This document shows, piece after piece, positions 50,551-53,595 of a stretch of DNA of 64,000 nucleotides. A model generated the notes under the pieces. That model searched no databases and had not been told where the DNA came from. It worked only from the letters and a program-made list of their open reading frames with translations. The first letter of the stretch is position 1. Each line of letters begins with the position of its first letter. Source of the stretch: Serratia nevei (lineage in GTDB: Bacteria; Pseudomonadota; Gammaproteobacteria; Enterobacterales; Enterobacteriaceae); assembly GCF_037948395.1 (NCBI RefSeq), contig NZ_CP149940.1, positions 1,240,001 through 1,304,000 of the forward strand, given 5' to 3'. A program made the position numbers and the translations under genes.

Positions 50551-51060
50551 ATGCAACTGAACAAAGTGCTGAAAGGGCTTCTGCTGGCACTGCCAGTTCT
50601 GGCTGTAGCAGCTTGTAGTTCTAACAAAAGCGCAAACAACGACCAATCTGGTATGGGCGCTGGCACTGGTATGGAAAACGGCAGCAGCAACCTGTCTTCC
50701 GAAGAACAAGCTCGTCTGCAGATGCAAGAACTGCAGAAGAACAACATCGTTTACTTCGGTCTGGACAAGTATGACGTAAGCTCCGAATTCGCTCAGATGC
50801 TGGACGCGCACGCTGCATTCCTGCGTAACAACCCGTCTTACAAAGTGACCGTTGAAGGCCACGCTGACGAACGCGGCACGCCGGAATACAACATTGCTCT
50901 GGGTGAGCGCCGTGCTAACGCCGTTAAAATGTACCTGCAGGGTAAAGGCGTTTCCGCTGACCAGATCTCTATCGTTTCTTACGGTAAAGAAAAACCAGCA
51001 GTACTGGGCCACGACGAAGCGGCTTATGCTAAAAACCGTCGTGCCGTTCTGGTTTACTAA
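50551..51060 (+). CDS. pal: Peptidoglycan-associated lipoprotein Pal
   Basis: A 169-residue outer-membrane lipoprotein. The signal peptide ends in lipobox Val-Ala-Ala-Cys with Cys22 lipidated. A short flexible Ser/Gly/Asn linker follows, then an OmpA-like domain binding peptidoglycan ([20 protein letters not shown], with [10 protein letters not shown]). The start is the ATG encoding MQLNKVLKG with AGGA upstream; an ATG nine codons earlier is open but unlikely. It lies 44 bp after tolB. Confidence 0.97.
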
Positions 51061-51069
51061 GAGAATCGC

Positions 51070-51861
51070 ATGAACAGTAACTTCAGACGTCACCTGTTGA
51101 GTCTGTCGTTACTGGTTGGCGTAGCGGCCCCTTGGGCCGCTACTGCCCAAGCGCCAATCAGTAATGTCGGCTCCGGCTCGGTCGAAGACCGTGTCACCTC
51201 GCTTGAGCGCATCAGCAATGCTCAAGGCCAGCTTTTAAACCAACTCCAGCAACAACTCTCTGATAACCAACGCGACATTGATTCTCTCCGTGGGCAAATC
51301 CAGGAAAGTCAGTATCAGTTGAATCAGGTGGTTGAACGCCAGAAGCAAATCTATCAGCAGATGGATAGCCTCAGCCAGGGCGGCGCTCAGAGCGCCTCTG
51401 CGGCCGTGGGTGCTGCCGGTGGGGCAGCCGCAGCATCTTCCGATGCGGGCGGCAGCGCGCCTGCAGCCGCTTCTGCAACGCCGAGCGGCGGTGATGAGAA
51501 CAGCGACTACAACGCCGCTGTTTCTCTGGCGCTGGAAAAAAAACAGTATGATCAGGCGATTTCCGCCTTTCAGTCCTTCGTAAAACAGTACCCGAAGTCT
51601 ACCTACCAGCCCAACGCCAACTATTGGCTGGGGCAGTTGTTCTACAACAAGGGTAAAAAAGACGACGCGGCCTACTATTTTGCGGTGGTGGTGAAGAATT
51701 ACGCGAAATCACCGAAGGCGCCGGACGCCATGTACAAGGTGGGTATCATCATGCAGGAGAAAGGGCAGGCCGATAAAGCCAAAGCCGTGTTCCAGCAGGT
51801 GATTAAACAGTACCCAACCAGTGCGGCGGCCAAACAGGCGAAAAGCCGCGTAGGCGGTTAA
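51070..51861 (+). CDS. cpoB: Cell division coordinator CpoB
   Basis: A 263-residue periplasmic protein (formerly YbgF) that links Tol energy to PBP1B activity at division. The signal peptide is about 26 residues (to AATAQA). An N-terminal trimeric coiled coil follows (about 35-105, rich in Gln/Leu heptads such as LNQLQQQLSDNQRDIDSLRG). After an Ala/Ser/Gly-rich linker come three TPR repeats from about 150 (YNAAVSLALEKKQYDQAISAF). It begins 9 bp after pal. Confidence 0.97.
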   Translation: MNSNFRRHLLSLSLLVGVAAPWAATAQAPISNVGSGSVEDRVTSLERISNAQGQLLNQLQQQLSDNQRDIDSLRGQIQESQYQLNQVVERQKQIYQQMDSLSQGGAQSASAAVGAAGGAAAASSDAGGSAPAAASATPSGGDENSDYNAAVSLALEKKQYDQAISAFQSFVKQYPKSTYQPNANYWLGQLFYNKGKKDDAAYYFAVVVKNYAKSPKAPDAMYKVGIIMQEKGQADKAKAVFQQVIKQYPTSAAAKQAKSRVGG

Positions 51862-51988: not shown

Positions 51989-52039
51989 ATGCCGCCGTTG
52001 CCAAGACATCTTGCAAGATGTTAAAGCGGCTGGGAAATT

Positions 52040-52115
52040 GGGTCGTTAGCTCAGTTGGTAGAGCAGTTGACTTTTAATCAATTGGTCGCAGGTTCGAATC
52101 CTGCACGACCCACCA
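52040..52115 (+). tRNA. tRNA-Lys (anticodon TTT)
   Basis: A 76-nt cloverleaf, GGGTCGTTAGC at the start and encoded CCA at the end. Anticodon TTT at 34-36, T-loop GGTTCGAAT. First gene of a six-tRNA operon. Confidence 0.98.
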
Positions 52116-52144
52116 ATTTCTGAAGTAGCAGTAACCACAACAGT

Positions 52145-52220
52145 GGGTGATTAGCTCAGTTGGTAGAGCATCTCCTTTACACGGAGGGGGTCGGCGGTTC
52201 GAGCCCGTCATCACCCACCA
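52145..52220 (+). tRNA. tRNA-Val (anticodon TAC)
   Basis: 76 nt, begins GGGTGATTAGC and ends CACCCACCA. Anticodon TAC at 34-36, T-loop GGTTCGAGC. Confidence 0.98.
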
Positions 52221-52227
52221 CTGTTAT

Positions 52228-52303
52228 GGGTCGTTAGCTCAGTTGGTAGAGCAGTTGACTTTTAATCAATTGGTCGCAGGTTCGAATCCTGCACGACCCA
52301 CCA
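52228..52303 (+). tRNA. tRNA-Lys (anticodon TTT)
   Basis: 76 nt, identical to the first tRNA-Lys. It is only 7 bp after tRNA-Val, and is followed by a structured spacer with a copy of its own 3' end. Confidence 0.98.
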
Positions 52304-52318
52304 TTCTTTAAGAATGGC
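52286..52318 (+). repeat. 33-bp direct repeat, copy 1 (tRNA-Lys 3' end plus flank)
   Basis: The last 18 nt of the second tRNA-Lys plus the flanking TTCTTTAAGAATGGC. The whole is repeated exactly at 52426-52458. Confidence 0.9.
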
Positions 52319-52329
52319 TGCGATAGAGA

Positions 52330-52442
52330 ATCGTAAAGGATGAGAACCGTAAAGGTTCGAGTCTCGCGAAGCGAGACAACATCACTCCGGTGATGGCCCG
52401 CAAGGGCGAGGCCAAAGGCCGAGTTATCCTGCACGACCCACC
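52330..52442 (+). repeat. 113-nt tRNA-tail structured element, copy A
   Basis: Lies between the second and third tRNA-Lys. A left arm TCGTAAAGGA (52331-52340) can pair with TCCTGCACGA (52427-52436). Inside are GGTTCGAG and four hairpins: GTCTCGC/GCGAGAC, ATCAC/GTGAT, GCCC/GGGC and GGCC/GGCC. It ends in the tRNA-Lys sequence CCTGCACGACCCACC. Same length and order as copies B and C, with different stem sequences. Confidence 0.75.
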
Positions 52443-52458
52443 ATTCTTTAAGAATGGC
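52426..52458 (+). repeat. 33-bp direct repeat, copy 2 (tRNA-Lys 3' remnant)
   Basis: Exact copy of 52286-52318, giving a tRNA 3' end without a tRNA body. It forms the end of structured element A. Confidence 0.9.
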
Positions 52459-52597
52459 AGCTTCAGAATCGGTTTGATGTGGCAAAGTAAAGGTCCGAGT
52501 CGAGTACCCGTCGAGTTGTCCTGAACATCCCCATCCTTGTTTTCCGCGAGTCGGTTCCAATAGAGCCTATTCGCCATCAGCAGTAAACCACATCAGT

Positions 52598-52673
52598 GGG
52601 TCGTTAGCTCAGTTGGTAGAGCAGTTGACTTTTAATCAATTGGTCGCAGGTTCGAATCCTGCACGACCCACCA
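52598..52673 (+). tRNA. tRNA-Lys (anticodon TTT)
   Basis: 76 nt, identical to the other tRNA-Lys genes in the operon. Confidence 0.98.
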
Positions 52674-52718
52674 CTCTTTAATAGAGCAAGGTGTGAAAAA
52701 TAGCAGTACCACAGCAGT

Positions 52719-52794
52719 GGGTGATTAGCTCAGTTGGTAGAGCATCTCCTTTACACGGAGGGGGTCGGCGGTTCGAGCCCGTCATCACCCACCA
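52719..52794 (+). tRNA. tRNA-Val (anticodon TAC)
   Basis: 76 nt, identical to the first tRNA-Val. Confidence 0.98.
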
Positions 52795-52800
52795 CACTGC

Positions 52801-52876
52801 GGGTCGTTAGCTCAGTTGGTAGAGCAGTTGACTTTTAATCAATTGGTCGCAGGTTCGAATCCTGCACGACCCACCA
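52801..52876 (+). tRNA. tRNA-Lys (anticodon TTT)
   Basis: 76 nt, identical to the other tRNA-Lys genes. Its last 16 nt begin the first 199-bp tail unit, followed 8 bp later by a terminator. Confidence 0.98.
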
Positions 52877-53059
52877 ATTCAGAGAAAAGCGCCTTTTGGC
52901 GCTTTTTTCGTTTCTGTAACATCTAAACCTGACCTCATCTTCTTGCCAACATGGTCACCGAGTCGTGCGGGTGAGATCCTGCGTTCAGGTTCGAGCATCG
53001 CGCAGCGATACGACAACGCGCAGCGTTGCCCGCAGGGTGAGGCCACAGGGCGAATCAAT
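52861..53059 (+). repeat. tRNA-operon tail tandem unit 1 (199 bp)
   Basis: Begins with the last 16 nt of the final tRNA-Lys (CCTGCACGACCCACCA), then a terminator, an unstructured spacer and structured element B up to the next tRNA-Lys 3' end. It is about 94% identical to unit 2 by eye. Confidence 0.9.
52885..52908 (+). terminator. tRNA operon terminator 1
   Basis: AAAAGCGCC-TTTT-GGCGCTTTTTT, a 5-bp GC stem extended by A-T pairs with a T-run, 8 bp after the last tRNA. Confidence 0.93.
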
Positions 53060-53074
53060 CCTGCACGACCCACC
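52962..53074 (+). repeat. 113-nt tRNA-tail structured element, copy B
   Basis: A left arm GTCGTGCGGG (52962-52971) pairs over 10 bp (one G-U) with the tRNA-derived CCTGCACGAC (53060-53069). Inside are CCTG/CAGG, GGTTCGAG, ATCGC-gca-GCGAT, CAACGC-gca-GCGTTG, GCCC-gca-GGGT and GCC/GGC, then CCACC at the end. Confidence 0.8.
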
Positions 53075-53259
53075 CATTCAGAAAAAAGCGCCTTTTGGCG
53101 CTTTTTTCGTTTCTGTAACACCCAAACCTGACTTTATCCTTTTGCCAACATAGTTCACCGAGTCGTGCGGGTGAGATCCTGCGTTCAGGTTCGAGCATCG
53201 CGTAGCGATACGACAACGCGCAGCGTTGCCCGTAGGGTGAGGCCACAGGGCGAATCAAT
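53060..53259 (+). repeat. tRNA-operon tail tandem unit 2 (200 bp)
   Basis: Second tandem copy, with its own terminator and structured element C. Most differences from unit 1 fall in the spacer. Within the structured part I see only two changes, both in hairpin loops (gca to gta). Confidence 0.9.
53084..53107 (+). terminator. tRNA operon terminator 2
   Basis: Same terminator as 52885-52908 in tandem unit 2. Confidence 0.9.
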
Positions 53260-53274
53260 CCTGCACGACCCACC
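53162..53274 (+). repeat. 113-nt tRNA-tail structured element, copy C
   Basis: Left arm GTCGTGCGGG (53162-53171) pairs with CCTGCACGAC (53260-53269). Hairpins are as in copy B, with loops gta in the first and third. Ends in CCACC and is followed by terminator 3. Confidence 0.8.
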
Positions 53275-53283
53275 CATTCAGAG

Positions 53284-53307
53284 AAAAGCGCCTTTTGGCG
53301 CTTTTTT
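53284..53307 (+). terminator. tRNA operon terminator 3
   Basis: Third copy of the terminator, in the partial unit (53260-53309) that ends the array. Confidence 0.9.
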
Positions 53308-53309
53308 CG

Positions 53310-53595
53310 CATCTGCAGCACCGTCAGCTACATTCGTGCTTTCTCGTTTCAACACTGCACCGATCATCACGCTGTTCTCTGAACGGCTATACGGTCTCGT
53401 CAGGCCATTTCCCGCTGTGAGCTGTGTAACCAATATCTGTGTTTTTTAATCCATTAAACAATAGGTGCGCAAATATGAAAATATCAGCGGACTTTTCGCG
53501 CAGTTTTAGGTATTTTGTTTAGTATATAAAACGAAGGGCGTTGCGGCAGGCGATATTCACGCGGCAGGCGCCCAGCCTAGCATGAGATTGCAGCG
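53310..53595. other. Region between the tRNA tail and nadA
   Basis: 286 bp, AT-rich in the right half, with no gene seen. It holds the nadA control site at 53516. Confidence 0.5.
53516..53533 (+). promoter_or_regulatory. Candidate NadR box of nadA-pnuC
   Basis: TGTTTA-GTATAT-AAAACG resembles the NadR operator TGTTTA-N6-TAAACA: the left half is perfect and the right has four of six. It lies 63 bp before nadA and overlaps TATA-rich promoter sequence. NadR control of nadA-pnuC is known in enterobacteria. Confidence 0.5.

Follow-up and report, generated by a model that had tools for sequence, protein, structure and literature searches.

What do the RtT RNAs of tRNA operons do? To our knowledge, their function is still unsettled. 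The tRNA trailer sRNAs of the 3'ETS-leuZ type are likewise RNAs from a tRNA operon trailer, and 3'ETS-leuZ itself is said to be a small-RNA sponge. In the RefSeq record of E. coli C600, two tRNA-Tyr genes are accompanied by four annotated RtT sRNAs, and the annotation reads 'rtT sRNA, processed from tyrT transcript'. The RtT RNA goes back to a 1991 paper, as dated from the references in the accessible parts of PMC11623569 and PMC4986893. The accessible part of the latter states an effect of E. coli RtT on the stringent response, reports A. pleuropneumoniae RtTs on Northern blots and locates these in front of tRNA-Asn and tRNA-Lys genes, in contrast to the position behind tRNAs seen here. Excerpts of other papers describe a tandem G-A motif in RtT (PMC7657543), an RtT sRNA of Thioalkalivibrio that is up in the cold (PMC8092127) and RNA-seq reads for four RtT copies of EHEC, of which two have few reads together with a ribosomal coverage of at least 2 (PMC5331693); the available portion of PMC2267715 makes no mention of RtT. 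What is already known thus includes the RtT family, its location in several tRNA operons and a measure of covariation. Its tracking of the host tRNA, the exact gain and loss of units and its occurrence in Zetaproteobacteria may be undescribed, judging from an incomplete literature search in which host tracking was absent from titles and abstract openings.

RtT copies in a tRNA-Lys/Val operon

The window, the whole 64,000-nt stretch of Serratia nevei DNA that was analysed, contains a six-tRNA operon (four Lys and two Val genes by ARAGORN). Three RtT copies, A, B and C, lie within and directly behind it, all downstream of a tRNA and on the same strand:

52040..52115, + strand, tRNA-Lys(ttt) gene (ARAGORN)
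52145..52220, + strand, tRNA-Val(tac) gene (ARAGORN)
52228..52303, + strand, tRNA-Lys(ttt) gene, host of copy A (ARAGORN)
52330..52442, + strand, RtT copy A (Rfam match 52319-52443)
52456..52540 (about), + strand, putative eroded RtT remnant (by eye)
52598..52673, + strand, tRNA-Lys(ttt) gene (ARAGORN)
52674..52708, + strand, empty site with a single post-tRNA flank (comparison with relatives)
52719..52794, + strand, tRNA-Val(tac) gene (ARAGORN)
52801..52876, + strand, tRNA-Lys(ttt) gene, host of copies B and C (ARAGORN)
52882..52909, + strand, terminator-like hairpin behind the last tRNA-Lys (hairpin scan)
52962..53074, + strand, RtT copy B (Rfam match 52951-53075; P1 52962-52971/53060-53069; CCC, not CCA)
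53081..53108, + strand, terminator-like hairpin behind copy B (hairpin scan)
53162..53274, + strand, RtT copy C (Rfam match 53151-53275; P1 53162-53171/53260-53269; CCC, not CCA)
53281..53308, + strand, terminator-like hairpin behind copy C, same as that behind B (inverted repeat I14; unlisted by the scan)

The scan for terminator-like hairpins listed two sites against a shuffle mean of 2.0. Elsewhere in the window, positions 51000-51099 match the CpoB/ybgF RNA thermometer (RF02782) at 107 bits (cut-off 51), the 5' end being clipped by the searched stretch.

A sequence-only reading of the window had described the three segments, and they are present as it described them: each is exactly 113 nt long and terminates in CCTGCACGACCCACC. 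It had also named the tyrT/rtT system of E. coli as their nearest parallel. That link was right, but the two are not separate systems. Copies A, B and C match the Rfam RtT model RF00391 at 71.2, 64.2 and 64.3 bits, respectively (gathering cut-off 45 bits; E from 3e-13 to 1.6e-11), in alignments that span the whole model and carry its consensus structure with some non-standard pairs. They are RtT RNAs, belonging to the tyrT/rtT family itself, and are real and ordinary members of a known family. Like rtT of E. coli tyrTV (RF00391), they stand behind a tRNA, carry a tail that copies the end of the host tRNA and come as repeated units; the letters of arm and tail differ from those of E. coli because the host here is tRNA-Lys. 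Copies B and C depart from the tyrTV elements in the loss of the CCA and in the terminator-like hairpin that follows each of them.

The left arm of B and C pairs with CCTGCACGAC at 10 of 10 positions, one of them G-U, as had been claimed; in copy A, where arm 52330-52339 faces tail 52428-52437, we count 7 of 10 pairs rather than the eight given before. B and C differ at only 2 of 113 positions (42 and 72), which we read as hairpin loops, in agreement with the earlier placement of these changes. Copy A folds far better than its dinucleotide shuffles (z -7.1; 0 of 200 equally good), and the folds of B and C stand out weakly (z -1.45 and -1.85; 17 and 9 of 200 equally good). The tail equals the last 16 nt of the host tRNA at 16 positions in A and at 15 in B and C. 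With the next base 3' of the 113-nt segment the sequence reads CCACCA in A and CCACCC in B and C, so that the intact 3' CCA of a functional tRNA-like end is present in A and absent from the other two. The 3' flank that follows CCACCA in copy A is the same as that of its host tRNA.

Tails borrowed from the host tRNA

How general is the copying of the host? We surveyed 171 loci, a hand-picked part of the RF00391 matches listed for the order, family and genus. With a model span over 60 required, 345 of 365 hits were kept, and 293 elements remained after removal of duplicates, a step that may drop identical tandem copies; 286 of these had a usable upstream tRNA. Their tails are identical to the host tRNA end at 16 of 16 positions in 217 elements and at 15 or more in 236, and 19 show fewer than 8 of the first 10 letters of the tail. 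The hosts are tRNA-Lys, -Tyr, -Pro, -Ser, -Arg, -Glu and -Gln, with a few misassigned where ARAGORN missed a tRNA (locus L106, for example). Set against every dissimilar tRNA end, in a narrower search segment, the host end was the better match for 239 of 279 elements, tied for 6 and worse for 34.

The same genome holds 17 RtT matches, 15 of them above the cut-off. They lie at two places behind tRNA-Tyr, at three behind tRNA-Pro, in one tRNA-Ser(gga) region that has two tRNA genes, and at two places behind tRNA-Lys. In 14 of the 17 the tail is identical to the last 16 nt of the host; B and C match at 15 of 16, and L014 at 9. Arms mostly go with tails, the exceptions being L015, which is shortened, and L017, whose left part fits no arm. 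The two tRNA-Ser(gga) genes have different ends, CCCTCTCTC and CCCTCCCTC, and the arms that follow, GAGAGGG and GGGAGGG, differ correspondingly. L017 itself (1501-1635, behind tRNA-Lys) scores 41.5 bits, below the cut-off, and has a body like that of B and C with a left part unlike the other arms.

A proposed closing helix that changes with the host

We consider it moderately probable that copies A to C are RtT modules of the tRNA-Lys/Val operon, that is, P1-closed RNA domains with a tail from the host end that recombine as units and are excised as small RNAs. Each RtT would be a single domain in which a helix, P1, joins the left arm to the copy of the host tRNA 3' end, the copy comprising the 3' strand of the T-stem and the start of the acceptor strand. 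Inside P1 would lie a hairpin, P2, whose 3' strand copies the 5' strand of the host T-stem ahead of GGTTCGA; several small hairpins in a row would complete the domain. P1 may close and stabilise the module and so keep the spare tRNA end paired, and the module may be cut out as a small RNA during tRNA maturation, as the E. coli annotation and one paper state for rtT.

The left arm pairs with the tail and varies with it. Taking one element for each of 27 tail types (two of them tails changed by one letter from the host end), the pairing of arms with their own tails came to -15.66 kcal/mol, against -10.35 (sd 0.51) for permuted tails; the lowest of 10,000 permutations was -12.57 and none reached the own value, although the p value is a guide only, because the tail types are not independent by descent. 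The own tail ranked first for 11 of the 27 types, and as low as 17th for L081 and 20th for L173 (arm missed by the pairing window). Among 227 elements (241 were kept before the final selection), arms paired with their own tail at a mean of -13.8 kcal/mol and with the tails of other hosts at -9.0, while an upstream control window gave -4.4 and -3.3, respectively; the own tail was strictly the best partner in 100 of the 227 and, for the control window, in 43. Of 20 elements whose tail departs from the tRNA end, 7 have an arm that suits the tail better and 7 an arm that suits the tRNA end better.

Position by position, 134 unique arm/tail pairs (from 160 elements) have tail positions 3-10 paired in 78-96% of cases and positions from 11 on in at most 54%, and P1 positions 5-10 show 3-6 pair types with 78-93% paired, percentages that lean high because the best-pairing duplexes were chosen and the elements had been pre-filtered for an arm-like motif. 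MAFFT alignments displace the arm by one base from one host type to another, and pairs were therefore counted by duplex prediction. P1 thus differs with the host tRNA, and the permutation test over 27 tail types supports selection on RNA shape for the closing helix, which the sequence-only reading had proposed. Its expectation of matches at tRNA 3' ends with covariation was also borne out, through the existing Rfam model and our own permutation test instead of a new covariance model and R-scape.

Does selection act on the tail as a tRNA mimic? A tRNA-like end could recruit or titrate RNase P, CCA enzymes or other tRNA-binding proteins, and the 217 tails that copy the tRNA end through the CCA, together with the invariance of GGTT and of the G of TTCG across 88 aligned sequences, fit such a decoy. 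However, P1 pairing drops off before the acceptor end, copies B and C end in CCC, and 31 eroded tails keep T-stem positions at 97-100% and CCA positions at 48-61%, a difference favoured by the selection of these tails for at least 8 of the first 10 letters. The loss of the CCA from B and C and its poorer retention in eroded tails speak against a decoy, which we regard as very unlikely, and the recognition by tRNA-processing enzymes or competition with tRNA-Lys suggested before is disfavoured in this decoy form. The same observations instead point to P1 as the closing helix of the domain and to the remainder of the tail as a mark left by the copying of units.

Alternative pairings

The strand before GGTTCGA also matches the 5' strand of the host T-stem, at a mean of 4.1 of 5 nt in 160 elements. 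In an RNAalifold consensus of 88 sequences (A and B of the window, together with a diverse selection of 86 from the 134 that includes C), the 3' strand of P2 pairs with the tail, in 8 pairs, and P1 does not form. This pairing equals P2 in quality (mean 4.09 versus 4.0 of 5 pairs), and the arm, the two P2 strands and the tail could therefore form two mutually exclusive sets of helices. We favour P1, as in the Rfam model, because the acceptor part (positions 8-10), which lies outside the T-stem, still covaries.

With arm, P2 strands and tail all mirroring the host T-stem, could the exclusive pairings work as a switch? In a strand exchange, the arm would also bind the 3' strand of the real tRNA, and RtT folding would set the speed at which the upstream tRNA matures. 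ViennaRNA ensembles of 113 precursors go in this direction: the acceptor stem forms with probability 0.98 in the tRNA alone, 0.37 with RtT minus its tail and 0.05 with the full RtT, while the arm sits on the tRNA 3' strand at 0.39 and 0.57 in the latter two, and forcing the arm to stay unpaired raises the native T-stem from 0.18 to 0.56. The native acceptor, however, then stands at 0.07 (from 0.05), with the RtT tail bound to its 5' strand at 0.89, which we take as an artefact of multiloop energies. We distrust precursor folding as evidence, both for this suspected artefact and because the model leaves out tRNA tertiary structure and co-transcriptional folding. Moreover, complementarity between arm and tRNA is automatic if the arm need only pair with a tail that copies the tRNA. 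A switch of this kind is unlikely. We judge equally unlikely its fuller form, in which RtT would be an old companion RNA of particular tRNA genes that Gamma- and Zetaproteobacteria have in common. Arm, P2 strand and tail would then co-evolve with the end of the tRNA in front, so that trailer and tRNA could exchange strands and the number of RtT copies would set the maturation of that one tRNA.

Gain and loss of units

Under the module reading, units would be gained and lost by recombination between a tRNA end with its flank and the similar tail and flank of an RtT, leaving the tRNA whole. Copies A to C of the earlier count are confirmed, but that count overlooked both an eroded copy and an extra unit in relatives. 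Between copy A and the tRNA-Lys gene at 52598, the stretch at about 52456-52540 has by eye an arm-like part, GGTCCGAG and a degenerate tRNA-Lys-like tail and is without central hairpins; it found no match to RF00391 even at E up to 10. We read it as a probable eroded RtT.

Relatives L146, L147 and L153 have a full RtT behind the tRNA-Lys equivalent to 52598-52673, where the window has none. That RtT is bordered by the post-tRNA flank on either side in L147 and L153 (L146 is less clear), and in the window there is one flank. This one-flank/two-flank pattern is the footprint expected of recombination between a tRNA end plus flank and an RtT tail plus flank, and would be equally compatible with loss here or gain in the relatives. 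In 132 of the 236 elements whose tails reach 15/16 or more, the agreement with the host continues past the CCA, at 11-12 of the next 12 nt. Tails of this quality belong to 91 of 116 terminal and 145 of 164 internal copies, a weak effect (p = 0.03; 6 unplaced). Relatives L146-L158 have between 1 and 6 RtTs in the tRNA-Lys/Val operon (7 if doubtful matches are counted); these are lower bounds because several loci are cut.

Descent and distribution

At E up to 0.001, RF00391 has matches in 28 of the 148 genomes that represent the GTDB order (22 above the cut-off) and, among the matches listed, in 33 of 60 of the family (32 above) and 26 of 30 of the genus. Why is it there? RtTs might be selfish or accidental repeats, functionless tandem duplications kept by recombination between tRNA ends. 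Copy number does vary among relatives, a 175-bp VNTR is recorded for the rtT RNA of Salmonella in an excerpt of PMC2658671, and bodies with the same genome and host are alike (mean identity 0.925). Yet the arm varies with the tRNA end though it is no direct repeat of it, bodies go with the host tRNA across genera, and the family matches given above leave 27 genomes without RtT, 24 of which are 2.4 Mb or less among the matches listed. We hold mere repeats to be unlikely.

The body comparison covered 143 bodies from 52 genomes, with arm, P2 and tail removed. Mean identity is 0.737 for the same host in other genera versus 0.682 for other hosts in the same genome. The best match of a body was a same-host RtT of another genus in 106 cases and an other-host RtT of its own genome in 2, a comparison tilted toward the former because other genera offer more candidates than the own genome. 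For 129 of the 143 bodies, the closest one from a different genus agrees in host amino acid (33.7 expected). Because bodies follow the host tRNA rather than the genome, they look like old tRNA-specific lineages, and from the body alignments we infer that these host-specific lineages are older than the genera compared. Recent hopping between tRNA genes was considered and is unsupported, given the 2 best matches against 106.

Across the phylum, 39 of 299 genomes matched (25 above the cut-off), 24 of them in one family of another class, probably the Zetaproteobacteria, where 24 of 78 genomes matched and 14 lie above the cut-off. Of 28 distinct elements analysed outside the order, 25 have an upstream tRNA in the available stretch; 20 of these 25 tails match at 16 or more of 18 positions, and the hosts of the 20 are tRNA-Ser, -Gln, -Asp, -Arg and -Lys. 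The zetaproteobacterial elements (L174-L176, L178-L187, L189-L191, L194 and L196) stand behind tRNA-Ser, -Gln or -Asp where the upstream tRNA is available, and one of them, L186 (735-913), is a 179-nt match with extra sequence before a tail that equals the tRNA-Ser end at 18 of 18. Their presence may reflect either old inheritance or transfer. Copies B and C (52955-53322) found no match in 50,697 phage records; 37 plasmid records match some part of 52030-53350, none covering more than 80%.

Implications

The host tracking reported here shows that the RtT family is more orderly than its single-host history suggests. The gain and loss of units shows a route by which a tRNA operon can change while its tRNAs are kept whole. 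The host-matched helix, in turn, opens the way to a test in which the arm is broken and a changed tail restores the pairing, to show whether the tRNA or the RtT RNA responds.
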